From the IMG/VR virus record IMGVR_UViG_3300017613_002120, positions 1 through 25,175 of that record: a stretch of 25,175 nt of DNA; one strand, given 5' to 3'. Under the pieces are notes generated by a model. The model was given only the letters and a program-made list of their open reading frames with translations. It did not search any database and was not told the origin of the DNA. This document shows positions 1,788 to 24,425 of this stretch, one piece after another. This stretch comes from a virus. The number at the start of each line of letters is the position of its first letter. The stretch's first letter is position 1. A program made the translations under genes and the position numbers.

Positions 1788-2503
1788 AGATATTTCTTGT
1801 AATCAAATTTTTCTTTACGCCTTCCTCTTAGAGAGTGAAACATCTCTTGTGCATCATAAGCTGCACTGGGGTAGACATACATTGGAGACCCAACCTTGTG
1901 AGGTGTTGCTTTACCAGCCCTGCATAAGTCTGCATACCTATGATTTATATCTACATCATCATTACCATAACCACCTTCACCAAATCTTTGCATGTTATAT
2001 CCATGCAATAAATCCCAACAAGTACGACGCATAACAAAGACACCAAATCCTGCACCAGTGCCTTTACCTTTCTTCTGCTCGTTTTCAACCCACCCGTATC
2101 TCATTAAAGATAGTTCATCTGTTCTAACAATACCATCTTTACTAAGTGTTGCAAACAATCTTGGGAATACCATTTTATTATCAGTGAAATTCTCAACATC
2201 ATTGATATTTGCTTTTGAAATAAAATGGTCTATCCCAAGGCACCAAACAAACTCACTAGGCTGAGAAGCATCAACTCCAAAGTTAACTGCTTTGGCTTGT
2301 GTCCACCTATTATAATTATGAGTTTGTACAAGTGTTAAATTAAAAATCGGCTTTGTCTTAATATCAATAGGTGGGTCACTACCATCATCGACAAAGATCA
2401 CCTCCCAGGTGATAGGAAGATCAAGGGTGTTCATATACTTAACTTGCCTTTCTACCACCTCATATGATTGAAGTACAGGAAATATAAGCGCTATTTTATT
2501 CAT
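1784..2503 (-). CDS. Family 2-like (GT-A fold) glycosyltransferase, 239 aa
   Basis: The protein starts with the GT-A nucleotide-sugar fold: beta strand IALIFPVLQ, strand VIFVDDGS with the diphosphate-binding DDGS at residues 39-42, and the KAVNFG segment at 71-76 that follows the nucleotide site. A metal-binding DxD equivalent is likely IDH at 91-93. GFGVFVMRR (152-160) and GYGNDDVD (178-185) match the acceptor and late acidic motifs of the galactosyltransferase-like GT2/GT27 group. The enzyme should transfer a sugar from a nucleotide donor to a glycan or protein; donor and acceptor are not readable. Its start overlaps the end of the upstream acyltransferase by 8 bases, and its stop overlaps the start of the 54-aa gene. 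It lacks transmembrane segments, so it is probably cytosolic. Confidence 0.85.
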   Translation of the reverse strand: MNKIALIFPVLQSYEVVERQVKYMNTLDLPITWEVIFVDDGSDPPIDIKTKPIFNLTLVQTHNYNRWTQAKAVNFGVDASQPSEFVWCLGIDHFISKANINDVENFTDNKMVFPRLFATLSKDGIVRTDELSLMRYGWVENEQKKGKGTGAGFGVFVMRRTCWDLLHGYNMQRFGEGGYGNDDVDINHRYADLCRAGKATPHKVGSPMYVYPSAAYDAQEMFHSLRGRRKEKFDYKKYL

Positions 2504-3173
2504 TGTTTATACCATTTGCTTCATTTAATTCTTTATGATAATCAAGAACAGATTCAGGAAAGCCAACATATTCGATCTTTACATCTGTCATTCTAACATC
2601 AACAGCAATCTTATCTTCTTCCTTAACATCGTCCCTATGAATAGCTGGATTCCCAAACCATATTTCATTGTCAGGTATATCCTTTGTAAGTACAGACCCC
2701 ATGCCAAGGACTGAATTTCTACCAATAGTTACACCTGGCTTTATCATACACCCTGCGGCTATTATTGCCCCAGTTCTTATAATTGGAGGCTTAATAATAT
2801 TATAATCAACAGGCAGTCTATGAAAACGAATGGCATCACAATTGGTAGTCAAAGTATAAGGCCCATAGTAAACCTTATCTTCAACGATAGTGCCACCACC
2901 TACAGTAGCATGTGGATAAATTGCAATATCATTGCCAAGCACCACATCAGGGTCAAGAAGACAAAAAGATCGAATTGACACTCTATCTCCAATTACCGTG
3001 CCAGGTCTTATAAGACAATTGTGGCCTATAAAACAGTCATTACCTATAACAACATTTTCTTCAATGATAACATTTTCACCGATAATCAGGTTCTTGCCAA
3101 TTTTCACCGATGGATGGATTCCAGACTCATACCCATTAATTGTATCAATAGACGTATATTGGTAACTATTCAT
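2496..3173 (-). CDS. Left-handed beta-helix (hexapeptide repeat) acyltransferase, 225 aa
   Basis: From about residue 20 to 175 the protein is built of hexapeptide repeats of the [LIV]-G-x4 type (VKIGKN, LIIGEN, VIIEEN, VVIGND, TVIGDR and later VTIGRN, SVLGMG). These coil into a trimeric left-handed beta-helix that binds an acyl-CoA donor. A loop with His near residues 110-120 (AIRFHRLPV) interrupts the helix, as in sugar N- and O-acetyltransferases, where such a His is catalytic. The C-terminal 40 residues are a charged helical tail. It most likely acetylates or acylates a sugar nucleotide or a glycan residue. AAGGAGGTG precedes the ATG at 3173. It is a divergent tandem partner of the next upstream gene. 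Confidence 0.87.
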   Translation of the reverse strand: MNSYQYTSIDTINGYESGIHPSVKIGKNLIIGENVIIEENVVIGNDCFIGHNCLIRPGTVIGDRVSIRSFCLLDPDVVLGNDIAIYPHATVGGGTIVEDKVYYGPYTLTTNCDAIRFHRLPVDYNIIKPPIIRTGAIIAAGCMIKPGVTIGRNSVLGMGSVLTKDIPDNEIWFGNPAIHRDDVKEEDKIAVDVRMTDVKIEYVGFPESVLDYHKELNEANGINNE

Positions 3174-3185
3174 TTTGACACCTCC

Positions 3186-3797
3186 TTATATTCTTTCAAT
3201 CTTCGGAACGATTCCGATTACTTTGGCAGGATTGCCGCGGACTATTTCATTGTCTTGAACCCTTGTCATTACAACAGAACCAGTAGCAACAAATGCATTT
3301 CTACCAATGACAACACCTGCATTAATTATAGAGCCGGCACCAATTCTTGCACCATCAAGGATCTCAAAGGGTAACTGCTGCCATTTAGCATCTGGCCTCA
3401 TATTCTCGTGACAGAGCATATTATCATTAACACCAATAAAGCCGGGAGCAATCAGCACCTTGTTCCCAATTCTAGCACCATTGGTAATATGACAGTTACT
3501 CTGAATTCTACAGTTATCACCTATTTTAATGTTGCCCTCTAATACACAGCAATGACCAATCCTAGAATTCGCACCTATAATTGTTTCTGGCCTTATAACT
3601 GTACCATTCCCAACAAGTACATTATCTCCAAGTTCACAAAAATCTTCAACTGTTACAAAATTGCCGAGCCTGACATTCTTACCAAAATCTACAGAGGGAT
3701 AAATAGAAATAAAGCTAAAGCCCATTTGAGCTTCAACATTATGAAGATTTAAGTAATTCTTTTTTATAAAGTCTTTTGTTGTATCTATTACTTTCAT
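3186..3797 (-). CDS. Second hexapeptide-repeat acyltransferase (WbpD-like), 203 aa
   Basis: The start is placed at ATG 3797 because GGGGGGAGG lies directly before it; a longer frame back to 3911 runs into the coding region of the preceding gene and is not needed. Repeats run from about residue 32 to 185 (VRLGNF, NVLVGN, TIIGAN, IKIGDN, ARIGNK, then VVIGRN and VATGSV). The end, ...NEIVRGNPAKVIG, is the classic closing motif of sugar O/N-acetyltransferases (WbpD/WlbB, NeuD and Maa groups). The likely reaction is acetyl transfer to a UDP- or dTDP-amino sugar or to a glycan hydroxyl. It starts 1 base from the stop of the upstream putative glycosyltransferase and precedes its paralogue by 12 bases. 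Confidence 0.88.
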   Translation of the reverse strand: MKVIDTTKDFIKKNYLNLHNVEAQMGFSFISIYPSVDFGKNVRLGNFVTVEDFCELGDNVLVGNGTVIRPETIIGANSRIGHCCVLEGNIKIGDNCRIQSNCHITNGARIGNKVLIAPGFIGVNDNMLCHENMRPDAKWQQLPFEILDGARIGAGSIINAGVVIGRNAFVATGSVVMTRVQDNEIVRGNPAKVIGIVPKIERI

Positions 3798-3798
3798 A

Positions 3799-4596
3799 TT
3801 ATAACACCTCCCCCCTGGAATATATTGGCCCCGTCCACTTTCCCCTTCGGGCACTATTAAAATCTGGAAAATAAGCAGCAATTTTACTACGAAACCCAGG
3901 CCATACCCCATCAGTTCTTACACATCTACCAGCAAAAGCAGCAAAATGATAGATGCCTTCATTATAGTGCCTACAATGAAGTGGCACTTTACCCTCCGTG
4001 TGCTCACCTAAATTGTAGACATCGCTGAAAAAACCAGTATGTGGCCCCATACCTCTAAGTATTACTTTAGGCTTTCTTCCTGGATAGTGTGGATGCTCAT
4101 GGTCTTTAGAATGTGGACATTCACAAACATAGTCAAGCATGAACCGAATGAATCTTGCAGAGCAGTAAATGCCACGACCATGCACTCTACCATTTGCAAT
4201 TTCTTCTTTTTCATCACGAAAGATAAATGCTTGGTCTATACCTTGCAATTGATTTTGAATATCAGTAAAGACATTTGGGTTATAAATTTGAATGTCATCG
4301 TGCATGAAAAGAACAGGTGACTCCCTATCCCAAACATTTTTAATATACCAGTCATACCCTCCAAACTCTAATCCTGCCACTGGTATTTTTAAATGTCTTA
4401 CACCTGATGGAATTACATACTCCTCTATCTGCCTAGATGCTGGTATAAGATCATAATGCCTAGGTCGCTGGTCTTCTGCTCGCTTGTAATATGTCAATAC
4501 GGTAATATTAAACAGGTCTTTTATCTGTTTAAAAACACTAAACAATGATAATTCAAAATACCAACCACTTACTGCTATAGCCATTCTTTTACCCAT
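3799..4596 (-). CDS. Putative glycosyltransferase (GT-A-like, HDD motif), 265 aa
   Basis: The N-terminus has an alternating strand pattern (MAIAVSGWYF, ITVLTYYK). Residues 79-104 read GGYDWYIKNVWD then FMHDDIQI, where HDD after a hydrophobic strand is a probable metal-binding DxD, as in GT-A glycosyltransferases acting without a membrane anchor. A second half rich in His, Cys and Gly (VCECPHSKDHEHPHYPG) may bind a metal. No family name is certain. Its place between a radical SAM enzyme and two acyltransferases, in a run containing two clearer glycosyltransferases, supports a sugar-transfer role. GGGAG precedes the ATG at 4596. It could instead be a related nucleotide-sugar-binding enzyme without transferase activity. 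Confidence 0.55.
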   Translation of the reverse strand: MGKRMAIAVSGWYFELSLFSVFKQIKDLFNITVLTYYKRAEDQRPRHYDLIPASRQIEEYVIPSGVRHLKIPVAGLEFGGYDWYIKNVWDRESPVLFMHDDIQIYNPNVFTDIQNQLQGIDQAFIFRDEKEEIANGRVHGRGIYCSARFIRFMLDYVCECPHSKDHEHPHYPGRKPKVILRGMGPHTGFFSDVYNLGEHTEGKVPLHCRHYNEGIYHFAAFAGRCVRTDGVWPGFRSKIAAYFPDFNSARRGKWTGPIYSRGEVL

Positions 4597-4617: not shown

Positions 4618-5649
4618 TTACAAGAAATTTACATGCCTGCAATCTTCTTTTATATTCCATAATATTTCATTAAAAGGATCACATCGGCAAAGATCAGGAC
4701 ATCTATCAAGATCAATACTATTAACCACCTCCCTTCTTTTTTTAGAGTTCCAAATATGATTTAATCCATTATCTTTAATGTTTCCTATAGTCATATTCTT
4801 ATTACCACGAGTATGACAACATATAGTCACATCTCCATTAGCACAAACAACAGTAGCAAACTGTTGTCCATAGCAAACTTTATATCTCTTTTCTATATTT
4901 TCAGAGAAAATTAAATTGTACTTATATTCTGATGTTATGATGCTAGTTGTATTATTTGACTTACCAATTAAAGGTTCAAAGTCAATAGGTTTAAATTTGT
5001 GTAAGTCTTGCTTACCATAAGATAGAAATGGTCGAAATTGAGCATAGTCAACTCCTAAAGAAATTGAAGTATTTACAAAGTCCATCATGTCTTCAAGTGC
5101 ATCAGTTCCTAACCCTGTAAGATATGCTGTGCCTATTGTACATTTGTAGTTGTCATCATTTTTAATGCCAGTCAGTTTGTTAACAGACATCAATATTCTC
5201 TTAAAATCAGAAGATCCATGAGTCCTTTTATGCATTCTTTCAGAACCAGCATCCAAACTTATTCTAATCCATTTACAGCAATCAAGTAGCGTATTCATAT
5301 CACTTTTATGAAGTAAGCCCCCATTTGTAATTAAACCAACATCAAGACCACAAAGATCAGCATATTTGATAGCCTCAACAGTGTCTACATTACAAAGTGG
5401 CTCTCCCCCACCAGTAAATATAATTCCTTTTCCACCTAACATTTGGACTTCACTGATAACAGACTTCATTTCTACTATACTGAGTGATTCTTTATCTGGA
5501 ACCGCAAAACCACAACATCCAGGACATTTATGATTGCAGATATTAGTAGCATCAAGTTCTATTGTAATAACAAAAGGATTTCTATCATTTAGCCAAGCTA
5601 CTACTTTAGGAAGATGATGTAAGATTTTATCACTGCTTAAAGGGTTCAT
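4618..5649 (-). CDS. Radical SAM enzyme with SPASM-like C-terminus, 343 aa
   Basis: The start is ATG 5649, which has AAGGAG at proper spacing; the frame extends upstream into the preceding gene without a better site. Cys38, Cys42 and Cys45 form the CxxxCxxC signature (CNHKCPGC) that binds the [4Fe-4S] cluster used to cleave S-adenosylmethionine. GGGEP at 80-84 is the SAM-contacting GGE motif, and ISLDAG follows later. The last 80 residues hold more Cys (KVCYGQ, VVCANG, TICCHT, CPDLCRC) and the IGNIKDNGLNHIW element typical of SPASM domains, which carry auxiliary clusters. SPASM enzymes modify peptides, sugars or tRNA-like substrates. The neighbourhood of sugar enzymes suggests a carbohydrate or glycoprotein substrate, but this is inference. 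It is 10 bases from the fusion glycosyltransferase gene upstream. Confidence 0.9.
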   Translation of the reverse strand: MNPLSSDKILHHLPKVVAWLNDRNPFVITIELDATNICNHKCPGCCGFAVPDKESLSIVEMKSVISEVQMLGGKGIIFTGGGEPLCNVDTVEAIKYADLCGLDVGLITNGGLLHKSDMNTLLDCCKWIRISLDAGSERMHKRTHGSSDFKRILMSVNKLTGIKNDDNYKCTIGTAYLTGLGTDALEDMMDFVNTSISLGVDYAQFRPFLSYGKQDLHKFKPIDFEPLIGKSNNTTSIITSEYKYNLIFSENIEKRYKVCYGQQFATVVCANGDVTICCHTRGNKNMTIGNIKDNGLNHIWNSKKRREVVNSIDLDRCPDLCRCDPFNEILWNIKEDCRHVNFL

Positions 5650-5659
5650 TTTAAACTCC

Positions 5660-7990
5660 TTAGTTAAATAATATATCTTCAAGAACTTCAACCCACTTCT
5701 TTGGATCAAGATTCATTCTAGCCCAATCCTTAGCATATTGTCCCATATGAGAACGTAACTTTTCTTTTCTTTTTAATGTTTTTAGCGCAAGCAAATACTC
5801 ATCATAATGAGTCGCGTAAAAACCATTGTTCCCATGTATTATTCTATCTTTTACCCCATCCCTTGGCTCACCAATTACTGGCAATCCAGCAGCTAAAGCC
5901 TCTGCTATCACTCTTGGATACTGGTCTCTCCAAAGATTAGACGTACGATATAAATAAACATGTCCCCTTGAAAGAAATTCAGTTACAGGAATTTCATCCC
6001 ATGTCCAGAATTTCATCCTATCAACATCTTTAAAAGTTTTGCTTATTTCATCCGGTGCTTGCATAAATTCAAAATTAACATCTTTTACATCACTCAGAAG
6101 TCTTGCATAAAATTTCATATCATTTTCTTTGGCAAATTGTTTTTGCCAAATATGAATCTTATCCCCCTTGCCCTCACTTTCAGTTGTTACATACTTACGA
6201 TAATCAGGTTTACAATGTTTTAACACAACTAGTTTTGAACCATCTTTTCTTGGTTCAGTACAGACATCCACCATTTTATCTAAATTGATCGCACCGAATA
6301 AAACAATTTTCTGAACGTGATCCAATGCAATCTGGTCTCGTTCGAACTCCATCATCTTTTCTTCATTTTGAAATATCACTGCTTTTAGTTTATCCCGTAA
6401 CCAATCCTCACATTTGGGCAACCAACCATTGACATAATTAATTCCTACAACCACTGATTTGGCTTTCTCAACTACTTTTTGTCCATGTTCAACAAAACCA
6501 TTTACATTATCATTTCCGTACAATAAAAGCGGGATCTCAGATTTCATTACTTCAGCCATATTAGTCCCAATTCCCATAAAGTTAGCACCTTCAATATCTT
6601 CATCCTTGAACTTTTTGTGAACCTGCGCCCACGGGTAAAAATTAACTTTCCACCTAGCATCTCGCAGTAGCTTGGCTATATTTAAAGCACTTTGTTCTCC
6701 ACCACCGTCAGTTTTCATAGATGCAAGAATATTTATCTCTTTAACCTCATCAACTACTACCATTTCTTGTTTGGTAACTCTGACAACACCACCCTTTTTC
6801 TTTATCGGTTTAGTAACTGGATTAGCAGTTTTCAAAACATTGCCACCATATATTATCTCAAGTTGCCGAATAACATCATCTGCTGTAAACACATCCATGC
6901 ATTGCTGTATCATCCTATTATTATCTTCTACTGGCAACTTGCATAACCTTTTGTTTTTATCAGGATCTTTAGGTAATGGCACTATTCTTGAATGCCAGCA
7001 CCCACCATATTCGCAGCAATGAAAGGCACCATTTGTATGTAACGGGTAAGTTTGATTATACAAAGTAAAAGTAATTGGTTCTCTGCCACCATATATTGTG
7101 ATACAAGGTTTGGGATAGATCCTAGGGTTTATCTTATTTGGCATTGCAGCACAAAGATGATGCAATAAAGATATACCACTAATACAACCATCTGCATGAT
7201 AAACAAGAGGAAATAATTTTCTTAGATCACCATTAAATTTATCCGTGAGGTCTATGACACCATTAATTTTCTCAAGTAGGTGATCACTCCTTCCGATAAC
7301 TACAAATTTTATATATCCCTTATAGTGATCAACCACCTTTTGAAACCGTCTCCAATCCCAAATTTTGCAAGTGCAATCACGTTTTCCACCTGGTGCTACA
7401 ACCCAGTATCTTTCAGCACCATAATTTTTCCTAATAAAAAAATCTTTCTTTTCTTCGTCTGTTAGGTAAATATCAGGTCTTATCCTTGCAAATAATTGAC
7501 ATATAGAATCTTTATTTTCAAACATATCCTGCATTGATTCGGGAAGATTAGTCAATCCACCATTTTTCTTTTCTTTATAGTTGATAGTCTTTTCAGTTTT
7601 AATATCTGGATCACCTATCCTGCCATTTGCAAATGCAGACATCAATTCATACAGGCTAAGGCCAAGAGGCTCATGATAATCTGCTGATGCAATCATATCA
7701 AAAAGAAAAGCCTGTGAGAAATGAGTATTCGCTGCATTAGCATTATTAATTACAGGATAACCAACTCGATAATGTTCTACTCCATTTTCATCCAATGCAG
7801 GAATCTTCTTGGGATCTGCTTTAATTACATAATCTACAAATGGATTATTTTCAAATACTTCGGGGAAACTTGTGTTGACAGTAATTTGAATTTTAGGGAA
7901 TAAGAGCTTGAAATCTCTTACACCACAAGTAAACATTAATGCATCACCAACAGCTCGCTTATGACTAAAAATGATATGTCTTTCTTTCAT
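5660..7990 (-). CDS. Two-domain glycosyltransferase: GT9 (heptosyltransferase-like) fused to GT4, 776 aa
   Basis: AAAGGAG lies just before ATG 7990, which is preferred to an upstream in-frame ATG at 8017. Residues about 3-370 look like family 9: HKRAVGDALMFTCGVRDF at the start matches the GD motif of ADP-heptose:LPS heptosyltransferases, and VVAPGGKRDC plus HHLCAAMP match the donor side. CCEYGGCWHSR and CMDVFTADDVI resemble the Cys-rich C-terminal part of bacterial GT9-like proteins. A linker with KKKGG follows. From about residue 420 the protein resembles GT4/GT1 GT-B enzymes: ASMKTDGGGEQSALNIAKLL, and near the end EALAAGLPVIGEPRDG and HGNNGFYA, the donor-binding region. Two transferases in one chain could add successive sugars. 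Donors cannot be read from sequence. There is no membrane segment. It is the first gene of the glycan cassette, after a 51-base gap. Confidence 0.82.
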   Translation of the reverse strand: MKERHIIFSHKRAVGDALMFTCGVRDFKLLFPKIQITVNTSFPEVFENNPFVDYVIKADPKKIPALDENGVEHYRVGYPVINNANAANTHFSQAFLFDMIASADYHEPLGLSLYELMSAFANGRIGDPDIKTEKTINYKEKKNGGLTNLPESMQDMFENKDSICQLFARIRPDIYLTDEEKKDFFIRKNYGAERYWVVAPGGKRDCTCKIWDWRRFQKVVDHYKGYIKFVVIGRSDHLLEKINGVIDLTDKFNGDLRKLFPLVYHADGCISGISLLHHLCAAMPNKINPRIYPKPCITIYGGREPITFTLYNQTYPLHTNGAFHCCEYGGCWHSRIVPLPKDPDKNKRLCKLPVEDNNRMIQQCMDVFTADDVIRQLEIIYGGNVLKTANPVTKPIKKKGGVVRVTKQEMVVVDEVKEINILASMKTDGGGEQSALNIAKLLRDARWKVNFYPWAQVHKKFKDEDIEGANFMGIGTNMAEVMKSEIPLLLYGNDNVNGFVEHGQKVVEKAKSVVVGINYVNGWLPKCEDWLRDKLKAVIFQNEEKMMEFERDQIALDHVQKIVLFGAINLDKMVDVCTEPRKDGSKLVVLKHCKPDYRKYVTTESEGKGDKIHIWQKQFAKENDMKFYARLLSDVKDVNFEFMQAPDEISKTFKDVDRMKFWTWDEIPVTEFLSRGHVYLYRTSNLWRDQYPRVIAEALAAGLPVIGEPRDGVKDRIIHGNNGFYATHYDEYLLALKTLKRKEKLRSHMGQYAKDWARMNLDPKKWVEVLEDILFN

Positions 7991-8041
7991 CTCTCTCCTT
8001 TCATTACAGTTCCACATTTAAGTGGCTGAAGTTATGAAAAT

Positions 8042-9611: not shown

Positions 9612-12600
9612 TTACACCTTTAATTTTTCAATATCCTTTTCCATTGGAATTATATAATCATTAAATACTTCTTGCAATGCTTTAATTAACATGGGAATAA
9701 ACAATGAGTATTTAATATATTTTAATCCCTCACCCTCTCCTACTAAACCAGGAAATATATTTTCTAATTCTTGACTTACTAAACCAATGTGCTTATCATT
9801 TTGAGTTTTCGTTTTTAAGTTATAATGTCTAACTTGACAACTTAATAGATCACTTAACTTGGGTGTACAATCTACAACATTCTCTTTCAGTGATATATCA
9901 CTGAAAGAACCATAACTGTCATTTCTGTTTACAACATCACCACTTGAATACACTATAAATTTGGATTCAGTATTGTCTTCCGCATAAATAAATTTAGACG
10001 CTGTATTGTCAGGTGAAAAAGCACTTATATCCAACCATAAGACATTGTTAGCATTATCACTTCTTGTATTTCGTATTCTTGCAGCAAACACACCATCATT
10101 AGCATCAACATCTAATCTAAAAAGCCCTCCATCCATATCCAAATCACCATTCAGATCTATTTCATTAACAAGAAGATCATTCCACCTATAACTTGAAGTC
10201 CCCAAATCAGAACCACCATTGAGTGTCGGAGCAAAATCTCCAGATACAGAAACTAGTGTTGAATTTAATAGGATTCCAGTCGAAGCATACATTTGCAATG
10301 TAGTAGGAGCCATATTAAAACTTGTATTTCCGCAATACATCAAAATATTACTATCTGCTTTTGTCCAAACAGTTGCAAAATTTATAGAGTTTCCTAATGG
10401 ATTTGCGCCAATAAATAATGACCCATAACTATCACTGTCGGGATATATACATAAATAGTCATTATCATAATCAACACCCATATAGTAAGTACGGGCATTT
10501 CCATGAAATTCTATTTGAGCAGTATCCCCACCAGTCGTTGAATGTAATTCTATATCCCCGCCAGCTTCACATATTATATCACTCCCATCTAACAACTTCA
10601 TGTTACCAGACGCTTGAATCTCCAAAGCGTCCGTAGTATTAATTGCAATTTTACCAGAAGTAATTGTCAGTGTGCCAAAATTGTCACCCTCCAACCTACT
10701 AGCCGCAATAGTGTTAGCAGTTATCTTTGTTCCTGAAAGTGTTTCTACATGAGCATCACCGACTGCTAATTTCATTATCTGCGCTGAACCAATAATCTGA
10801 TTGCAAATAGCATTGCCCCACGCCTTTTGATGTACTCCACTTTCATTTATTAGAATTACCGAGTCTTCTAAGGGTGTCCAATCTGATAAATCCAAAGGAT
10901 TAGAACTTTCAACTGAAGTAGATAAAGTAGTTGCAAGGTCTTTCCAATAAACATAAAAATCTTCAGTGTAACCAGCAGCAATAGAATACTCTATATTGTT
11001 ATGCCATAAAGTAAAACTTGACCATGCAATGTGGCCAATAAAGGGTGAGCTATCTGTTACTGTAAGCCCACTAATAACTGGGCTATAAGGAAACAGTTTA
11101 CTTGCAGCAGGGCCAAAAGTAACTATATCTGTTGGCAATATATTTAATGATGCAGCAGTGTCATTCGTACTACTAACACTAGATTCATTACTAAAAACAT
11201 CAACAGCTATCACCTCAAAATAAATAGTAGCTCCAGAACCATAAGTATCTTTTTCATCACTTGTAAGGACTCTAGTGTAAAAAGGGTTTTGAACTTCAAA
11301 CCAAGATTCCCCATTAAGAACAGCCCCTACCTTTGCTCTATATTCATAATGAGAAAAGTCTGATTCTGTATTTCTATCCCAACTGAACTCTACGGACAAT
11401 GACCATGAACTAGATGTTAAATTTTGTGGATTTGTAGGATCTGCATTGGAAACAGCCAACTCAGCAGCATTATCAGAATCAGTGGAATATATATCCCTAC
11501 AATACACTTTGAATGTAAGATCATCATTTGGTGTAGTGTTATCTTCTATGTTCATCGCCAATGTATAAATGAAATTTGGCACAGTAATATATTCTGTTCT
11601 CAATAATGTCGGTGTAACATCATATATTTCGACTTTATAATCATTATGTCTTGGATTAGTAATAGGCGACGACATATCATCCCACTCAATTTCACAATCA
11701 AAGCCAGTAAATGTAGAACCTCCGCCCTTGACTTGTAAGCCAGTAACATCTGGTGGAGCACTAGGATCGAGTGATAGTTCTATATCATCATAAACCCAAG
11801 TAGAATGGCCTGTAAGAGCTTCAGACCTTACTCGAACAGTATATGTTAAAGTGCCGGTGCCACTAATGTCTAAAGGCTTTATTTGATAAAAGGAATCTTC
11901 TATCCTTGCCACAGTAACATATCCACTGGGGTCATCAGCATCAGAATCTTTCTCAAATTGGACGGTATAATAAATAACCCTTGGATCTTCTGGTAATGTC
12001 CATGTAACATTTATTCCAAATAAGTGATTTTGTCCCTCCTTATATGTAAACTCCACTATGTCAAGGTTCGTTGGTGGTGATATTAAAAGATTCTTAGGCG
12101 GGACTATAGGTTCCTCAAATTCAATATCACCTTCCATTCTTGCAAACTTATCAGCATCATATTCAATACCAAAAACATCAAACTTGTTCTTTTCCACTTC
12201 TTCAGCAGCAATCACTCTGAACTCACGAACGTTGTTTTCAAGATCATCTGCCTGTGATATTACAGCCATCTCATTAGCAATAGGATCTCTTGAGAATACT
12301 GAGTCAATTACCAAACGAGCATTATTTGACTCAGTAACAGACTTGCAAGAAACACTGTCAATATAAAAAGTTTGTGCCACTACGGAAAATATACGAACAT
12401 ACGCAAGCGCTCCTGTTTGTGTTTCTGTTGCTTCAAATTCAATTTTATTCCATGCATTTAAGGTTAAATCAGTAAAGGTGTTACTATAAATAGTCCCAGA
12501 ATCAATTCCATCAGCAACTGTTACCCGGACACTTGAAGCAACCAGCGGATAGACATAAAAAGTGTACCTGTAAATTGTTCCAGAAATTGTTGTGTAAGTA

Positions 12601-14744
12601 GAAGATTCAATTCCTTGATTGGCTCCACCCGCTACAATTTTCCAGCCATAAGACCCCGAATATTTTTGCTCCGTACTTTGTTCATCTGTAGAACCACCAT
12701 AATTGTCCCAATTAGAATCAAATTCCATATCACCGTTTGTTATTAATTCAGAACCAAACGCACTACCCCAATCAACAGCAGCAGATATACTTTTGCTTTC
12801 TATCACTGCTTCATCATCAGAGTTTCTAATCAATACATGTAAGGAATAAGTTTCTGCCACCTCTTTTGTGAAAGAACCCTCAACAAAAATATTTATCCCA
12901 AGAGCACCCATTACTCTAAAGCCAAATCTTTTATCCCCGTAATATTGATCAGCAACTTTAATAACTTCACCAGGGTACAAATCTATCGAGTCAAAACTTG
13001 CTCTGAATCTAACTGTATCTGGTTTAAATACTTCAGAGTCAAGAAGCCATTTCCCAATCCTATGAGCCTGCCCTTTACTAATGCAACCTAACGTAGAAAC
13101 TCTTTTTTCATTATATCCATATCTTTCAATACCATAAGCATGTTGTATATATTCAGGAACTGCCCTACCAAGTTCAACAGGATTATCCCAAACAACAACT
13201 GCCGCAGTATGAATATCTTCCAACCCAGTACCATCATAAAAAAACTCACCATTAACAACATTTGCATTTGTATATAACCTAGTTGCATCTGTTGGTTTAT
13301 CTTGAGATATAGTAGCAATAGCAGAACCCCAATATGGCATTGCATTAAATGACGCAGCTAAAACATTAAAAAGTTCTTGTGCATCATATTGTTTGTCAAT
13401 CTTCCCATTAAATGAAAAACGAGGTTCCTTTTTTCCATACCCATTATCTACAAGTATATCACAATATTGAGCTATTGAGTAAAGTGTCCACTTATCTATA
13501 TAAGCTGCACTAATTCCAGCACAAGCAAAAGACTCATTTAACAGGTCATAAAACACCCATGCACTATTTGAAGACCATTTCTTAGTTGTATAAAAACGAC
13601 CATTCCATGTTCCACTATAAACTCTTTCTGCCGAAACCAAATTACTTGTTAGTGTGTCACTTTCAGTCGTAAGTGTAACAGTTGTAAGACCGGCACTATA
13701 AACAGGATCACTGTCAACTTCACATTCCATATACCCATCATCGCCACAATTACAACAGAAACTTGAAGATGCTAAGAAAGTAGTTCTTTTATCACCACTA
13801 ACAGTAAAAGAATTACTACTGACATATGTGGCTGTAAGATAAGGTGTGTAATTTATCGGGACTTTTATTTTTCTACCTCGAAGATGATATATCCTTTTAG
13901 GAACTTTTCCCCCCATAGAACGAGCATCTACTTCAAGGCCAAAGATTGCACTATTTGGGTATGTTAGCTTTACATTTATTATTTCAGTATAACTGACCCA
14001 ATATGTTTTACTATTATCTTCAAGTTTATCATCACTGTCTCTACTCTTACGCCATACCCTTAAATCGTAAGGTGCATCACCAAGACTTTTTAGGTCTATC
14101 GTTACAGACCTTTCATATTGGGACTTGGTTAAACCATCAAAAAAGAATGCTCCTTTATTTGCAACAATTGATTGATAGCCACCACCATTACACTGAACAT
14201 CTACTCGAACTGTACACTTCGTAGACTTATAATCACCATCTTTTTTCAACCAAAACAAACTTGGAAGTCTAATCGTAATTCTAACAGCATCAACATCTGT
14301 ATTTGTAATTGTTTTAATTACATATTCCGGGTTCCCAGGTGCATAAGTTAATTCAACAGGAAACCCACTAGTGACAGGTGTCTCGACTTGATTGAAGTCC
14401 TTTATGTATGTTTGATCTGCCGTTCCGTACTTATAAGAAAAGCTAACATTCTCAAAGTTATATGAATCATCATCGCCCTGTAATTGTACACCATTAAGAT
14501 ATACTGATTTGTCTCCATTTACAAGACCTTCTATCTCCCCTTCACATATTAAATCAACACACCTAAAAATAGCATTTGACTGCATTTTAGATGTCTTCTT
14601 CGGTAAAACATTACTAACAACTGCATCAGAAGAACCTCCCGAAGAAGGTGCAGGATTATCCCAAGAATAATCATCACCAGTTGGTGCAGGGCTATCCCAA
14701 TAATAAACAGGATCACTATCATTATCATCCCATGTTGGAGACAT
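9612..14744 (-). CDS. J: Tail tip / host-specificity protein J homologue with S74 chaperone, 1710 aa
   Basis: This protein should form the central tail tip that contacts the host receptor. The first 50 residues are low complexity (DNPAPSSGG); then MQSNAIFRCVDLICEGEIEGLV and YLNGVQLQ match the start of the lambda J family. Residues about 667-802 (LITNGDMEFDSNWDNYGG ... FYIDSVSCKS) look like a CBM4/9-type jelly-roll inserted in the TipJ region. About 880-1205 are fibronectin-III-like repeats. TKITANTIAASRL is the J-type turn into a shaft region. The C-terminus ends in a peptidase S74 domain: Ser1615-Asp1616 and Lys1620 in SDISLKE, then IGLVSQELENIFP. S74 domains trimerise fibres and cut themselves off at this Ser, here releasing about 95 residues. 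GGAGG precedes the ATG at 14744, which overlaps the gpI stop as TAATG. Confidence 0.93.
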   Translation of the reverse strand: MSPTWDDNDSDPVYYWDSPAPTGDDYSWDNPAPSSGGSSDAVVSNVLPKKTSKMQSNAIFRCVDLICEGEIEGLVNGDKSVYLNGVQLQGDDDSYNFENVSFSYKYGTADQTYIKDFNQVETPVTSGFPVELTYAPGNPEYVIKTITNTDVDAVRITIRLPSLFWLKKDGDYKSTKCTVRVDVQCNGGGYQSIVANKGAFFFDGLTKSQYERSVTIDLKSLGDAPYDLRVWRKSRDSDDKLEDNSKTYWVSYTEIINVKLTYPNSAIFGLEVDARSMGGKVPKRIYHLRGRKIKVPINYTPYLTATYVSSNSFTVSGDKRTTFLASSSFCCNCGDDGYMECEVDSDPVYSAGLTTVTLTTESDTLTSNLVSAERVYSGTWNGRFYTTKKWSSNSAWVFYDLLNESFACAGISAAYIDKWTLYSIAQYCDILVDNGYGKKEPRFSFNGKIDKQYDAQELFNVLAASFNAMPYWGSAIATISQDKPTDATRLYTNANVVNGEFFYDGTGLEDIHTAAVVVWDNPVELGRAVPEYIQHAYGIERYGYNEKRVSTLGCISKGQAHRIGKWLLDSEVFKPDTVRFRASFDSIDLYPGEVIKVADQYYGDKRFGFRVMGALGINIFVEGSFTKEVAETYSLHVLIRNSDDEAVIESKSISAAVDWGSAFGSELITNGDMEFDSNWDNYGGSTDEQSTEQKYSGSYGWKIVAGGANQGIESSTYTTISGTIYRYTFYVYPLVASSVRVTVADGIDSGTIYSNTFTDLTLNAWNKIEFEATETQTGALAYVRIFSVVAQTFYIDSVSCKSVTESNNARLVIDSVFSRDPIANEMAVISQADDLENNVREFRVIAAEEVEKNKFDVFGIEYDADKFARMEGDIEFEEPIVPPKNLLISPPTNLDIVEFTYKEGQNHLFGINVTWTLPEDPRVIYYTVQFEKDSDADDPSGYVTVARIEDSFYQIKPLDISGTGTLTYTVRVRSEALTGHSTWVYDDIELSLDPSAPPDVTGLQVKGGGSTFTGFDCEIEWDDMSSPITNPRHNDYKVEIYDVTPTLLRTEYITVPNFIYTLAMNIEDNTTPNDDLTFKVYCRDIYSTDSDNAAELAVSNADPTNPQNLTSSSWSLSVEFSWDRNTESDFSHYEYRAKVGAVLNGESWFEVQNPFYTRVLTSDEKDTYGSGATIYFEVIAVDVFSNESSVSSTNDTAASLNILPTDIVTFGPAASKLFPYSPVISGLTVTDSSPFIGHIAWSSFTLWHNNIEYSIAAGYTEDFYVYWKDLATTLSTSVESSNPLDLSDWTPLEDSVILINESGVHQKAWGNAICNQIIGSAQIMKLAVGDAHVETLSGTKITANTIAASRLEGDNFGTLTITSGKIAINTTDALEIQASGNMKLLDGSDIICEAGGDIELHSTTGGDTAQIEFHGNARTYYMGVDYDNDYLCIYPDSDSYGSLFIGANPLGNSINFATVWTKADSNILMYCGNTSFNMAPTTLQMYASTGILLNSTLVSVSGDFAPTLNGGSDLGTSSYRWNDLLVNEIDLNGDLDMDGGLFRLDVDANDGVFAARIRNTRSDNANNVLWLDISAFSPDNTASKFIYAEDNTESKFIVYSSGDVVNRNDSYGSFSDISLKENVVDCTPKLSDLLSCQVRHYNLKTKTQNDKHIGLVSQELENIFPGLVGEGEGLKYIKYSLFIPMLIKALQEVFNDYIIPMEKDIEKLKV
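9883..9908. repeat. 26-bp perfect palindrome over the S74 self-cleavage motif
   Basis: The 26 bases at 9883-9908 read the same on both strands; one half is TCTTTCAGTGATA. On the minus strand they encode the S-F-S-D-I-S-L-K segment with the predicted self-cleaving Ser. The mRNA could form a tight hairpin here. A perfect 26-bp palindrome inside a coding region is rare by chance. It may reflect an RNA structure that slows ribosomes at the domain border, a protein-binding site, or a past recombination junction for swapping fibre tips. Confidence 0.7.
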
Positions 14745-15247
14745 TAACTAACCACCTCCTCTGTTCTAACACCTTGTGATACTACAATTGAACCAGTATA
14801 AACCTCTCCATATATAAGTGGTATTGGAGAACCCTGTCTGTCAGTATTCCCAACACTACCAAAAGAATATCCACGCTCCTCACTCTCAAAATTATCTTCT
14901 GGCCTTACACTTCCTGACATAGTGAAAGCCATTACTGCACCAACAACAATTGATGCTATTAACACCCATCCTAAAGCACCAATCCCACCGGCACCTTGCA
15001 CTGTAGGTGAGATGTGAAAATCACCAGTTCCATAATGAAGATTTATCAAATCTTCATTTAAACTCTCCCCACCTAATAAGTCCTTACCACGAACAAGATC
15101 TAACCTCATATTCTTTATTACTTTTCCAAACTCACCACCAGTGTTAATGTTAATAGCATGAGCAGCTTCTGCAATTGATTCAACATCTAACTCCCACACT
15201 TCCCCAAACTCCTTTAATTTACCGTATAAAAATATATTTCTTAACAT
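14744..15247 (-). CDS. I: Tail assembly protein I homologue, 167 aa
   Basis: The start is ATG 15247 with AAGGAAAG upstream; an earlier in-frame codon lies in the K-like gene. The N-terminal 80 residues form a ubiquitin-like beta-grasp pattern (IFLYGKLKEFGEVWELDVESIAEA). A Gly-rich hydrophobic segment (GGIGALGWVLIASIVVGAVMAF) follows, as is usual in lambda gpI relatives. RQGSPIPLIYGEVYTGSIVVSQGV near the C-terminus is the family's best conserved motif. gpI acts in tail-tip assembly with K, L and J and is not a stable virion component in lambda. The gene overlaps K by 7 bases and ends in a TAATG overlap with J. Confidence 0.9.
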   Translation of the reverse strand: MLRNIFLYGKLKEFGEVWELDVESIAEAAHAININTGGEFGKVIKNMRLDLVRGKDLLGGESLNEDLINLHYGTGDFHISPTVQGAGGIGALGWVLIASIVVGAVMAFTMSGSVRPEDNFESEERGYSFGSVGNTDRQGSPIPLIYGEVYTGSIVVSQGVRTEEVVS

Positions 15248-15945
15248 GATTCTTTCCTTACAACACACTTTGCAGAACTGCCCCAAACATTTAAATCACA
15301 ATAACAAGACAGCCTGTTATTTAGGTGATGCAATATTCTCCCTTTACCATCATATACTCCAATATGGTTAATCACTTTTGATCCGATAGACCACATGAAA
15401 ATGTCACCTTCTTGAAAACCTTCTTTGCTAATAGTACTAAACCCAAACTTGGGAAATAAAGTTTCAAAAAGAGATTCCCCATTACCCCACAAACCATATT
15501 CTGACTTAACACGTGGTAAGTCAATACCCATATTTATCTTGTAGTAATCTTGAACTAATGTATAGCAATCATATATACCATAAACAAACGGTCTTTCCAG
15601 TAATTGTTGAGTTTCAATTCCATCTCCCCAAAAATAAATCCCCCCCTTTTTAGAATCATTAATGAATGCTACACCCCAAGGAATATTTGAGTCCTCACTT
15701 CTTTCCATATCTTCTTTTGACAAATATGGACAGTCTATATGACTGTGGATTATTGCTTGCATTCCGTTATTATAGCCATGAACTATTGTGCGCTTATCAA
15801 TCCTAAAAGTTTTATAAGGGTCTAAAGCAATATTATCACATGGCATGTAAGAATCATTTAATATAATACCACAACACTCCATAGGTGCCATTGCATATGT
15901 ATGTCCCCAAATATCTTTATGTGTATTAATAAAATACTTCTTCAT
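15241..15945 (-). CDS. K: Tail assembly protein K homologue: JAB plus NlpC/P60 domains, 234 aa
   Basis: Two enzymatic modules lie in the order typical of lambda gpK. The N-terminal JAB/MPN domain has Glu23 (MECCGII), His67 and His69 (IIHSHIDCPY) and Ser76/Asp79 (SKED), the zinc ligands and catalytic residues of JAMM metalloproteases; the spacing between HSH and S is one residue shorter than in lambda. The C-terminal NlpC/P60 domain has Cys127 in YGIYDCYTLVQDYY, His194 in INHIGVY and His206/207 as the third position. NlpC/P60 enzymes cut peptidoglycan stem peptides, so this tail-tip protein may open the wall during DNA entry or process tail proteins. Its ATG overlaps the L stop as ATGA. Confidence 0.92.
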   Translation of the reverse strand: MKKYFINTHKDIWGHTYAMAPMECCGIILNDSYMPCDNIALDPYKTFRIDKRTIVHGYNNGMQAIIHSHIDCPYLSKEDMERSEDSNIPWGVAFINDSKKGGIYFWGDGIETQQLLERPFVYGIYDCYTLVQDYYKINMGIDLPRVKSEYGLWGNGESLFETLFPKFGFSTISKEGFQEGDIFMWSIGSKVINHIGVYDGKGRILHHLNNRLSCYCDLNVWGSSAKCVVRKESC

Positions 15946-17726
15946 ATGCTCAGTCTATTCACTCCAGGGAACGCTGAAAATGGCATTGGCCCGTTATCTC
16001 CATATCTCAACTTACAGCCAGATAAAGTATGAGAACAATTATCACTTCCAGCATCAACTGTTGAATTACCATTTCTTTCAAAATAAGCACCCCCTGTATA
16101 TGGGCATTGCCTATCAGCATCGTAAGTAAAAGCAGAACCACCCCAACGCCTATAAACATATTGACAAACATCCTTCAAAACAATTCTTGAAGGAATTTTC
16201 TTTCCTTCTTTGTCCATATATGGAGTCAATTCAAACTCCATATAGATTTTTGTTTGGTTTAATTTTTTACTGATAATATATATGTCAATTGGAAATTCTG
16301 CCGTTGGATCAGCTTGAACCCCATCATCCAAATATTGCCGGAAAGTCCTTCTCCTCTTAACAACTGCACCAAGCATATCTTGATAAGACATACATAAATC
16401 ATGTATTGTATTATCTACATCAGCAATTTTTATTCTTGGCCTTGGCTGTTGACCTCTTGCAATATGAGCAAACCCCGTAGCATCAAAAGCCCTTGGATAA
16501 TATGTTTCTCCGTCAAACTCTACCGCAACTCTGATACTTCCTGATTCAGTAGTACCTTGAATAAAACGATAAATGCTACCACCTAAACTTGTGAGATGTA
16601 ATTCCCAAAGGACTATTAAATCTCCCGGTGCTGGCTGATGTATATCAACAGGAATACCAGTTTTTGATGCAGAACTTGAGGACTCAGATTCTGAAGATTG
16701 GGAACTTGATGATCCTGAAATTTTTCCAAACCACCATGAATTAGAGGATGAGTCACTAGATGTTGATGATATAGATACTGAATCACTTACAGAATCACTT
16801 GACAACGAAGACTCCGAATATGAAGATACCGATGAAGAGGAAGGTGACTCATTAGATGACTCAGACGAAGATGACGATTCCGAGCTAACCGATGAATATG
16901 ATGAATAGGAAGATGGTGACTCATTAGATGAATAAGATGATGTTGATGACTCAGATGATGATGACTCAGACGAAGATGATGTCGATGAAACAGATCCAGA
17001 CAAACTTGAATTGGAACTATTTGAACTAGAACTATCACTACTAGATGAAACAGAACTATCACTGCTAGACGACACAGAACTTGAGCTGCTAGATTCACTT
17101 GAACTACTAGTACTTTCAGAACTAGAGCTACCACTTGATGTGCTTTCACTACTAATAGATTCACTTGAACTACTAGTACTTTCACTTGAAGTACTTGAGC
17201 TTGAACTTTTCGACTCACCACTCATACTAGATGAAGATGCTGATGATTCTGAACTTTCAGAAGATTCACTTGAACTGGATGATTCACTAGATTCACTAGA
17301 TTCACTTGAACTGGATGACAATGAACTTGAACTAGTAGAACTATCTGAACTGCTAGATAATGAAGGGCTTGACAAAGACGAACTTGAACTTGAACTACTG
17401 ATAGATGAACTTGAACCACTGGATGATGAATCACTAGACAATGAACTACTACTAGATTCACTTGATAAAGATGAACTTTCAGAACTAGAGCTATCAGAGC
17501 TATTAGATTCGCTAGACGAACTTGAACTATCTGATGAACTACTTGAAGATGAACTACTTGAACTTTCACTACTTTCACTTTCACTTGATAAAGATGAGCT
17601 TTCAAATGAAGAGATACTTGAGCTTGAACCTACATCAGACGAAGAAGATGAAGATGTAGATGATACAAAACTTACATCTTCATCTTCAAACGTTACATCA
17701 CCACCTATAAAAGAAACATCAGGCAC
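15942..17726 (-). CDS. L: Minor tail protein L homologue with giant serine-rich N-terminal extension, 594 aa
   Basis: About residues 22-345 are a low-complexity chain of Ser with Glu, Asp, Leu, Thr and Val. From about residue 350 the protein is a normal-length gpL: APGDLIVLWELHLTSLGGSIYRF, GQQPRPRIKIADV and a C-terminal domain with Cys521, Cys541, Cys564 and Cys571. In lambda gpL four such Cys bind a [4Fe-4S] cluster. The closing PFSAFPGVNRL is also family-typical. Ser codons are mixed between TCN and AGY boxes, which argues for selection on the protein. The start is a GTG at 17726, four bases after the gpM stop, with TTTGGGG upstream. The extension is not part of known gpL and may be a surface-exposed, possibly glycosylated region. 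Confidence 0.88.
   Translation of the reverse strand: MPDVSFIGGDVTFEDEDVSFVSSTSSSSSSDVGSSSSISSFESSSLSSESESSESSSSSSSSSSSDSSSSSSESNSSDSSSSESSSLSSESSSSSLSSDSSSSGSSSSISSSSSSSSLSSPSLSSSSDSSTSSSSLSSSSSESSESSESSSSSESSESSESSASSSSMSGESKSSSSSTSSESTSSSSESISSESTSSGSSSSESTSSSSESSSSSSVSSSSDSSVSSSSDSSSSNSSNSSLSGSVSSTSSSSESSSSESSTSSYSSNESPSSYSSYSSVSSESSSSSESSNESPSSSSVSSYSESSLSSDSVSDSVSISSTSSDSSSNSWWFGKISGSSSSQSSESESSSSASKTGIPVDIHQPAPGDLIVLWELHLTSLGGSIYRFIQGTTESGSIRVAVEFDGETYYPRAFDATGFAHIARGQQPRPRIKIADVDNTIHDLCMSYQDMLGAVVKRRRTFRQYLDDGVQADPTAEFPIDIYIISKKLNQTKIYMEFELTPYMDKEGKKIPSRIVLKDVCQYVYRRWGGSAFTYDADRQCPYTGGAYFERNGNSTVDAGSDNCSHTLSGCKLRYGDNGPMPFSAFPGVNRLSI
17091..17184. repeat. 28-bp direct repeat in the serine-rich part of L
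   Basis: Bases 17091-17118 and 17157-17184 are identical (plus strand, starting AGATTCACTTGAACTACTAG), 66 bases apart in register, so the unit is in frame. It shows that part of the serine-rich region grew by recent in-frame duplication. Other copies in the region are similar but diverged. Confidence 0.75.
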
Positions 17727-17729
17727 TGT

Positions 17730-18086
17730 TTACCCCAAATCAAACTCTTTTCTAAAAATTGCAGTTACCAACCTTGCTATCCCAACATTGCCAATTTTCA
17801 TTGTTTTTTGCCATTCTGCAACAGTAAACTTTTGAGCTACAGTCTCATCAGGCGGAGTCCAATCAATAGCATCAACACCCCTAGCTGCTTCCAACTGTGT
17901 TTCTAAAAGGGATATTTCATCACTGTCTAAGTGTTCCCATTCCACATCCCATGTTTCAGAAATAACATTTATCCCATCTCCTGCTCGTTGTGAATAACCA
18001 TCACCAAACTCGGCTCTTAAAACCCTTGAAACACTTTGCTTTCTTGGCCCTTCAGCAGAAGTTGGTTCCACAGCTAAATCAGCCAT
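17730..18086 (-). CDS. M: Minor tail protein M homologue, 118 aa
   Basis: The protein matches the phage minor tail family (PF05939): FGDGYSQRAGDGIN near residue 28, a WDVEWEHL strand, the AARGVDAIDWTPPDE turn and the VAEWQKT segment before the final strands. In lambda gpM joins the tail-tip complex next to H, L and J. Length is usual for the family. GGAGG precedes the ATG at 18086. It lies between the tape measure gene (2-base gap) and the serine-extended L gene (3-base gap), the canonical order. Confidence 0.9.
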   Translation of the reverse strand: MADLAVEPTSAEGPRKQSVSRVLRAEFGDGYSQRAGDGINVISETWDVEWEHLDSDEISLLETQLEAARGVDAIDWTPPDETVAQKFTVAEWQKTMKIGNVGIARLVTAIFRKEFDLG

Positions 18087-24000: not shown

Positions 24001-24237
24001 TTAAGTCACAGAAGTTGAACTACTAGACTCAGAACTCGAACTAACAGAAACAGAACTCGAACTCTCCGAACTAGTCGAACTCGAACTAGTTGAACTTGTA
24101 GATGATTCCGAACTATCCGATGAGCTAGACCATGATACATTGTCATTCACATTTACGATCCATCGCCGAAGATAGGCTGGTAATGTAGAATCATGTTTCG
24201 CCCTGAGTCTGTCGTCGATGTGCTTTTTCTCAGACAT
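24001..24237 (-). CDS. Small serine-rich protein A, 78 aa (tandem paralogue)
   Basis: The first 35 residues (MSEKKHIDDRLRAKHDST, then LPAYLRRWIVNVNDNVSW) look folded and are shared with the neighbouring 53-aa protein. The remaining 43 residues are about three quarters Ser, with Glu, Thr, Asp and Val. Ser codons come from both TCN and AGY boxes, so the composition is not simple slippage of one DNA repeat. AAGGAG with ATG at 24237 is identical to that of the paralogue. Genes beside the major capsid gene are often decoration proteins; that role is suggested only by position. Function is otherwise unknown. Confidence 0.75.
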   Translation of the reverse strand: MSEKKHIDDRLRAKHDSTLPAYLRRWIVNVNDNVSWSSSSDSSESSTSSTSSSSTSSESSSSVSVSSSSESSSSTSVT

Positions 24238-24425
24238 AATTAGACTCCTTACGTCGTGGAGCTAGAACTTTCGGATGATGTAGAACTATCCGAAGAACTA
24301 GACCACGAAATGTTATCATTTACATTCGCGATGTATCGCCTAAGATAAGGGGGTAATGACAATGACTGTTCACTTTTCTCTCTGTCATTAACATTCTTTT
24401 TCTCAGACATAATTAGACTCCTTAC
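24223..24425. repeat. 30-bp direct repeat marking the tandem duplication
   Basis: The 30 bases at 24223-24252 recur exactly at 24396-24425 (starting CTTTTTCTCAGACATAATTA on the plus strand). They span the ribosome binding site, the start codon and the first codons of both small serine-rich genes. The two copies are 173 bases apart. This is the conserved core of the duplicated unit; the rest of the units is diverged, so leader and start have been kept identical or re-homogenised. Confidence 0.85.
24249..24410 (-). CDS. Small serine-rich protein B, 53 aa (tandem paralogue)
   Basis: The frame runs from ATG 24410 to TAA 24249. The start MSEKKNVNDREKSEQS is followed by LPPYLRRYIANVNDNISW and a short tail SSSSDSSTSSESSSSTT. 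It aligns with the 78-aa protein through LPxYLRRxIxNVNDNxSWSSSSDSS and differs mainly by a shorter tail. The TAA stop is part of the AAGGAG ribosome binding site of the paralogue downstream. The two copies therefore arose by tandem duplication and have since diverged in the linker and tail length. Confidence 0.7.
   Translation of the reverse strand: MSEKKNVNDREKSEQSLSLPPYLRRYIANVNDNISWSSSSDSSTSSESSSSTT

Follow-up and report, generated by a model that had tools for sequence, protein, structure and literature searches.

A serine-rich extension on the tail hub protein gpL of an uncultivated tailed phage, and its possible glycosylation

The tail hub protein gpL of an uncultivated tailed phage, encoded in a 25,175-base IMG/VR fragment that we here call the window, was found to carry a Ser-rich N-terminal extension of 357 residues. 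This gpL is a decorated tail hub, a protein of a known kind in a new form, and it possibly forms part of a phage-encoded system for glycosylation of Ser residues.

The gpL gene and its serine-rich extension

The gene at 15942–17726 on the minus strand consists of a single 594-aa open frame with a GTG start, immediately 5′ of which lies a GGGG stretch that could be a ribosome-binding site. Its C-terminal part, residues 358–594 (15945–16655, minus strand), is an ordinary lambda-type gpL. TIGR01600 matched residues 361–592 with 156.6 bits against a cut-off of 70.75, PF05100 matched the C-terminal part with 135.6 bits against a cut-off of 25 (E 1.8e-39), and alignment with homologues identified Cys 521, 541, 564 and 571 as the four conserved iron–sulfur cluster cysteines, with three of these columns being invariant in the alignment and one Cys being absent in locus L019. 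Both the coordinates and the gpL identity given in the initial annotation were thereby confirmed. The tail genes of the window, all on the minus strand, follow the lambda order M-L-K-I-J, with a gpM-like distal tail protein (17730–18086, PF05939), a gpK-like NlpC/P60 protein (15241–15945, with a weak JAB match), a gpI-like tail assembly protein (14744–15286) and a 1710-aa gpJ-like central fibre having a C-terminal Peptidase_S74 chaperone (9612–14744).

The extension itself covers residues 1–357 (16656–17726, minus strand) and contains 237 Ser (66%), 30 Glu, 14 Asp, 11 Thr and 3 Lys, with a net charge of −41. In a charge–hydropathy plot, which is based on composition, it falls on the disordered side. 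The initial annotation had proposed a long, flexible and probably acidic tract of 320 residues made up of Ser, Glu, Asp and Thr; its length in general terms, its acidity, its predicted disorder and its contents of Ser, Glu and Asp all agreed with our results, while the number of residues had to be corrected to 357 and Thr was only a minor constituent (11 of 357). In the densest stretch of 40 residues, Ser reaches 82.5%, compared with 0–10% for the other main genes in the window, and the binomial log10 P for the Ser content, about −195, excludes chance at the protein level. No Pfam domain was matched in the extension, and phrog_18 aligned to part of the Ser tract, an alignment that low complexity may explain. 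A hydrophobic island, WWFGKIS, lies inside the tract at residues 331–337 (16716–16736, minus strand). In the literature searched, we found nothing relevant that described Ser-rich phage tail proteins earlier.

At the DNA level, the Ser residues of the extension are encoded by all six codons in about the proportions used in the rest of the genome, the TCN and AGY codon classes follow each other as would be expected at random (z 1.1), and the tandem arrays are short and imperfect only. A plain DNA repeat was rejected in view of the six codons, their genome-like use and the random order of the two classes, and the same genome-like use and random order argue that Ser has been maintained at the protein level and does not derive from a fresh triplet expansion. 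The open frame on the plus strand at 17011–17835 was also rejected as a gene, being the antisense of the Ser tract.

The fusion is found in other assemblies as well. The gpL protein is identical in a sibling assembly (G001), which has 99.8% identity to the window over the compared 19 kb and about 10 kb of extra sequence at the head end, and a Ser-rich extension in frame with gpL is present in three divergent contigs, L003, L007 and L008, the gpL domains of which are 68, 71 and 68% identical to that of the window; the gpL genes of L007 and L008 are truncated by the contig ends. A frame error or misassembly that fuses two genes, raised as a concern in the initial annotation, was rejected because of the identical sibling protein and the same fusion in the three divergent contigs; we found nothing in favour of such an artefact and give it next to no credence. 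There is furthermore no in-frame ATG, GTG or TTG between gpL codons 308 and 446, and a separate short gpL from an internal start is for that reason not expected. The last 260 residues of L007 and L008 are 90% identical, with an upstream tract of at least 127 residues in the former and at least 170 in the latter; as far as these two sequences tell, the composition of the Ser tract is conserved and its length is variable. All three contigs have a different hydrophobic island, such as TAVELLQYFAYPYDKLADAPA, at the position corresponding to WWFGKIS. In the L003 gpL, an inserted non-Ser segment, about 230 residues long, separates two Ser tracts; AlphaFold modelling without homologues gave an all-beta structure at a low-confidence pLDDT of 40, and sequence searches with this segment of the PDB, Pfam and PHROGs returned nothing usable. 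We also noted 72 bases tandemly repeated near the end of G001 (L011:453–596), where the window sequence stops, possibly as an effect of assembly.

The first 21 residues of the extension form a leader, VPDVSFIGGDVTFEDEDVSFV (17664–17726, minus strand), with a motif common to the gpL of L003, which has the similar MSQVFVQDGDVTPQDGDVILEP, and to other Ser-rich phage proteins; in L129 and L134, leader-like modules such as PDVVFKDTGAVEWTDTDDVVFEDIS precede or separate the Ser tracts. A leader pattern composed from the matched sequences themselves gave 15 matches from about three lineages, all of them in Ser-rich ORFs; the remaining ORFs, 1.65 million residues in total, had no match. As the pattern was derived from its own matches and these represent about three lineages, the motif should be taken as a lead only. 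As a small beta unit, the leader might serve self-association; alternatively, it might mark the protein for modifying enzymes.

N-terminal additions to gpL and other serine-rich proteins of the phage

Lambda-type gpL proteins usually have about 230 residues. The six cultured-phage gpLs that we compared have 227–244 aa, against 594 aa in the window, and a Ser-rich extension was absent from these six and from nine genome-derived gpLs. In 793 genomes of two phyla, the gpL frames spanned 206–308 aa from stop to stop, with two exceptions. These were frames of 428 aa (G502:C102:52848–54038) and 421 aa (G801:C33:216002–217171), both having an internal insertion close to position 92 of the model. Of 81 viral gpL loci, only the sibling of the window and L003, L007 and L008 had a Ser tract, in agreement with the initial view that the extension is unusual, and the closest relatives having no Ser tract were the gpLs of L049 (60% identity) and L004 (56%). 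Judging from the loci compared, the Ser-rich gpL extension is restricted to one lineage.

The N-terminus of gpL is a recurrent site of additions, because other gpLs bear different and unrelated modules there. On 22 viral contigs (L088, L093–L098, L100–L103, L107–L110, L112–L114, L118–L120 and L124), and also at the genome locus L037, gpL has an N-terminal module of about 66 residues (AWAASTAFSVGDIRR...) instead of a Ser tract, which matches the C-terminal portion of a PHROG for head decoration (E 2.8e-8), and the gpL at L076:9455–10657 has at its N-terminus a 169-residue repeat of the VAGSVSITLADVT type. In lambda, the N-terminal domain of gpL forms the last tail ring together with gpJ, and the iron-binding domain of gpL is located on the outer surface (PMC10721106). 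By analogy with the lambda structures and with the other N-terminal modules, the N-terminus of the window gpL would point outward.

Several further proteins of this phage have Ser tracts. A 501-aa protein with 319 Ser is encoded upstream of the portal gene, beyond the window (L010:8502–10007 in G001), and on the minus strand of the window a 78-aa protein with a Ser-rich tail (24001–24237), the gene of which shows an in-frame length difference of 21 bases when the window is compared with G001, is encoded next to its 53-aa tandem paralogue having a shorter Ser tail (24249–24410). Since at least three proteins of this phage besides gpL have Ser tracts, the gpL extension is not a tip-specific invention. 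The tandem paralogues are situated between the capsid and tail genes. The leader of the 501-aa protein, MAFTYANHGDGHQIVWDNGKW, is 67% identical in L013, and its C-terminus has the short repeat FEHKALKKT; a 1194-aa MuF-like head protein at L010:2564–6148 has, by inspection, further C-terminal domains. No close cultured phage was found using either the portal or the leader of the second Ser-rich protein.

The glycan cassette and its association with serine-rich proteins

Downstream of the tail genes and on the same minus strand, the window encodes a glycan cassette. A 785-aa glycosyltransferase (5660–8017) has a GT4-type C-terminal domain according to Pfam and PDB matches, and its N-terminal half seems, by inspection of the sequence, to be GT9/heptosyltransferase-like. 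The other members are a radical SAM/SPASM protein (4618–5709), a protein predicted to have a GT-A-like fold (3799–4596), a hexapeptide (left-handed beta-helix) acetyltransferase (3186–3911) and a second hexapeptide acetyltransferase (2496–3173), both NeuD-like, and a GT2-like glycosyltransferase with a weak Pfam match (1784–2503). The model of the GT-A-like protein had a pLDDT of 78.5, and its top Foldseek matches were glycosyltransferases and NDP-sugar enzymes at low TM-scores, about 0.3. Using Pfam and NCBIfam, we found neither DUF1975 (GtfA/GtfB) nor any other known Ser O-glycosyltransferase signature in the cassette proteins, and because DUF1975 is lacking, the cassette was not placed in the GtfA/GtfB family. 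A 146-aa protein at 1181–1621 shows weak similarity to Agglutinin_C and has a 46% identical homologue at L044:1947–2432, near Ser-rich genes.

The 785-aa GT9-GT4 enzyme matched 42 viral loci. With ORFs regarded as Ser-rich if at least half of the residues were Ser over 50 residues, and with redundancy kept, such ORFs occurred on 14 of 24 contigs with close GT9-GT4 enzymes, on 7 of 17 with distant homologues and on 4 of 77 gpL contigs, the close group differing from the gpL contigs at p = 7e-8 in this redundant count. When redundant contigs and the window phage itself were left out, Ser-rich ORFs were present on 9 of 19 GT9-GT4 contigs compared with 3 of 69 random viral pieces (Fisher p = 2.5e-5), and when the count was restricted to pieces of 8 kb or more, the corresponding numbers were 9 of 16 and 3 of 45 (p = 1e-4). 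The three Ser-rich background cases look like antisense frames. These background contigs had been sampled by a random 15-mer, a ribonucleotide reductase query having matched its own contig only.

The frequency of Ser-rich ORFs on the contigs with distant homologues did not differ significantly from that of the close group, and since the distant contigs also show Ser-rich proteins, the link extends beyond the close enzyme family. The full records of L014 and L015 have Ser-rich proteins beyond their first 20 kb too. Homologues of the GT-A-like and GT2-like proteins were, among the loci compared, found only in L013, L040, L125, L140 and L144, each of which has the GT9-GT4 enzyme in the same record as well as Ser-rich proteins. 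As analyzed with BLASTP, the structural genes of the compared contigs are unrelated to those of the window, which argues for a joint transfer of enzyme and Ser-rich proteins. The co-occurrence could also be due to a host group or habitat in common, as the background contigs were not matched for either. The contigs L003, L007 and L008 end too early to reveal whether a cassette is present.

Explanations for the extension and its relation to known systems

In what we consider the best explanation, the extension is translated and exposed on the surface, where it decorates the trimeric gpL hub of the tail tip. The short leader, of beta type, would be held out on a disordered, acidic and Ser-rich stalk of about 330 residues, which would begin directly at the native gpL N-terminus, with one strand for each gpL copy and hence, by analogy with the trimer of lambda, three on every tail. 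The Ser residues may be O-glycosylated by the GT9-GT4 fusion of the phage together with the accessory GT-A-like and GT2-like enzymes, and perhaps acetylated, yielding an extended, hydrated and sugar-coated brush that would space the tip from the surface polymers of the host, or reach through them, during adsorption. It is the enrichment of Ser-rich proteins in unrelated phages sharing the glycosyltransferase that points to O-glycosylation of the stalk. That the stalk is flexible and exposed seems very probable. The complete explanation, with an exposed disordered stalk on the tail hub probably being O-glycosylated by enzymes of the phage itself, we hold at slightly under an even chance, and glycosylation of the stalk, considered separately, is a tentative proposal. 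The glycan scaffold suggested in the initial annotation has indirect support, from the phage-encoded cassette and the Ser-rich enrichment, with glycosylation itself being what we infer; its other suggestion, a spacer, fits with relatives that place folded segments between Ser tracts. A wider version, in which a GT9-GT4 system for Ser O-glycosylation has moved among unrelated phages together with its acceptors, forming a mucin-like brush on tail hub and head proteins and having the beta motif as a mark of the acceptors, is rather doubtful.

Nearly as likely as a glycosylated stalk is an unglycosylated linker, which we regard as a quite conceivable explanation. The Ser tracts would then be flexible spacers in virion proteins built as beads on a string, with the spacer of the window holding the leader motif only and that of L003 also a folded segment, and the cassette would act on the host surface; phage sugar-modifying genes frequently change host surfaces. 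This agrees with the Ser-rich proteins of many other uncultivated phages among those fetched, in which folded segments alternate with, and are joined by, Ser tracts of 30–660 residues. In L041, a lectin-type Laminin_G_3 domain adjoins a Ser tract, and a 614-aa frame located away from the gpL locus (L105:13507–15348 and L106:11224–13065) has folded regions and Ser tracts, which in L105 seem to lead into a gpM-like start at the contig end, a weak gpM match below cut-off (E 0.0065). However, no folded module can be recognised in the window extension, the higher frequency of Ser-rich proteins on GT9-GT4 contigs would become a coincidence of host or habitat, and the preference for Ser over Gly, Pro and Thr, the usual linker residues, would be left without explanation.

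A nearly neutral expansion of low-complexity sequence, with a tract that grows and shrinks by slippage and is merely tolerated, appears improbable. It would account for the variable tract length among relatives, for the 21-base in-frame difference in another Ser tail between near-identical genomes and for the short imperfect repeats, but not for the Ser-richness, acidity and leader being kept at about 70% identity, for the six Ser codons in genome-like proportions or for the Ser tracts on several unrelated proteins of the same phage. More improbable still is a pro-region or assembly aid, cleaved off before the tip is completed. Some tail proteins do mature by cleavage, and gpL homologues function without an extension, but we recognised no cleavage signal in the extension, although not by systematic search.

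Compared with known systems, the window gpL shares with lambda-type gpLs the full-length domain above curated cut-offs, the four Cys and the gene order, and differs in its total size and in its long Ser-rich N-terminal addition; the family tolerates additions. In lactococcal phages, evoDit is a tail-tip ring protein with a lineage-specific addition thought to aid adsorption (PMC10688798). There, too, a conserved tail-tip ring protein is enlarged, and the relative L003 carries an inserted non-Ser segment; however, the window protein is a gpL and not a Dit, its addition is N-terminal and predicted to be disordered, with no match to a carbohydrate-binding domain in Pfam, whereas that of evoDit is internal, and the added segment of L003 stayed unclassified in PDB, Pfam and PHROGs searches. 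In bacterial serine-rich repeat adhesins (SRRPs) of Gram-positives, Ser is glycosylated by GtfA/GtfB (PMC6291802). A very Ser-rich stalk and glycosyltransferase genes in the same genome are features in common, but here the protein belongs to a phage tail, the cassette has no GtfA/GtfB of the DUF1975 type and the glycosylation is putative. For the mycobacteriophages Che8 and Rita, as they are cited in PMC11256854, virion glycosylation is phage-encoded, with glycans reported on the major capsid proteins. To the extent of that citation, these phages and the window both encode glycosyltransferases presumed to act on proteins of the virion, whereas in the window the candidate target is a dedicated Ser-rich tract, present on the tail hub and also on other proteins, and its sugars are presumptive.

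If the stalk is glycosylated, it would be the counterpart in a phage of the Ser-rich glycoprotein adhesins of bacteria, and a single small genome would encode both the enzyme and its acceptor; virion glycosylation would become directly testable, and models of how the tail tip contacts surface polymers would change. Even without sugars, the findings show that lineage-specific modules have repeatedly been attached to the N-terminus of the conserved gpL hub, and that uncultivated phages recurrently use very Ser-rich linkers as a building material.
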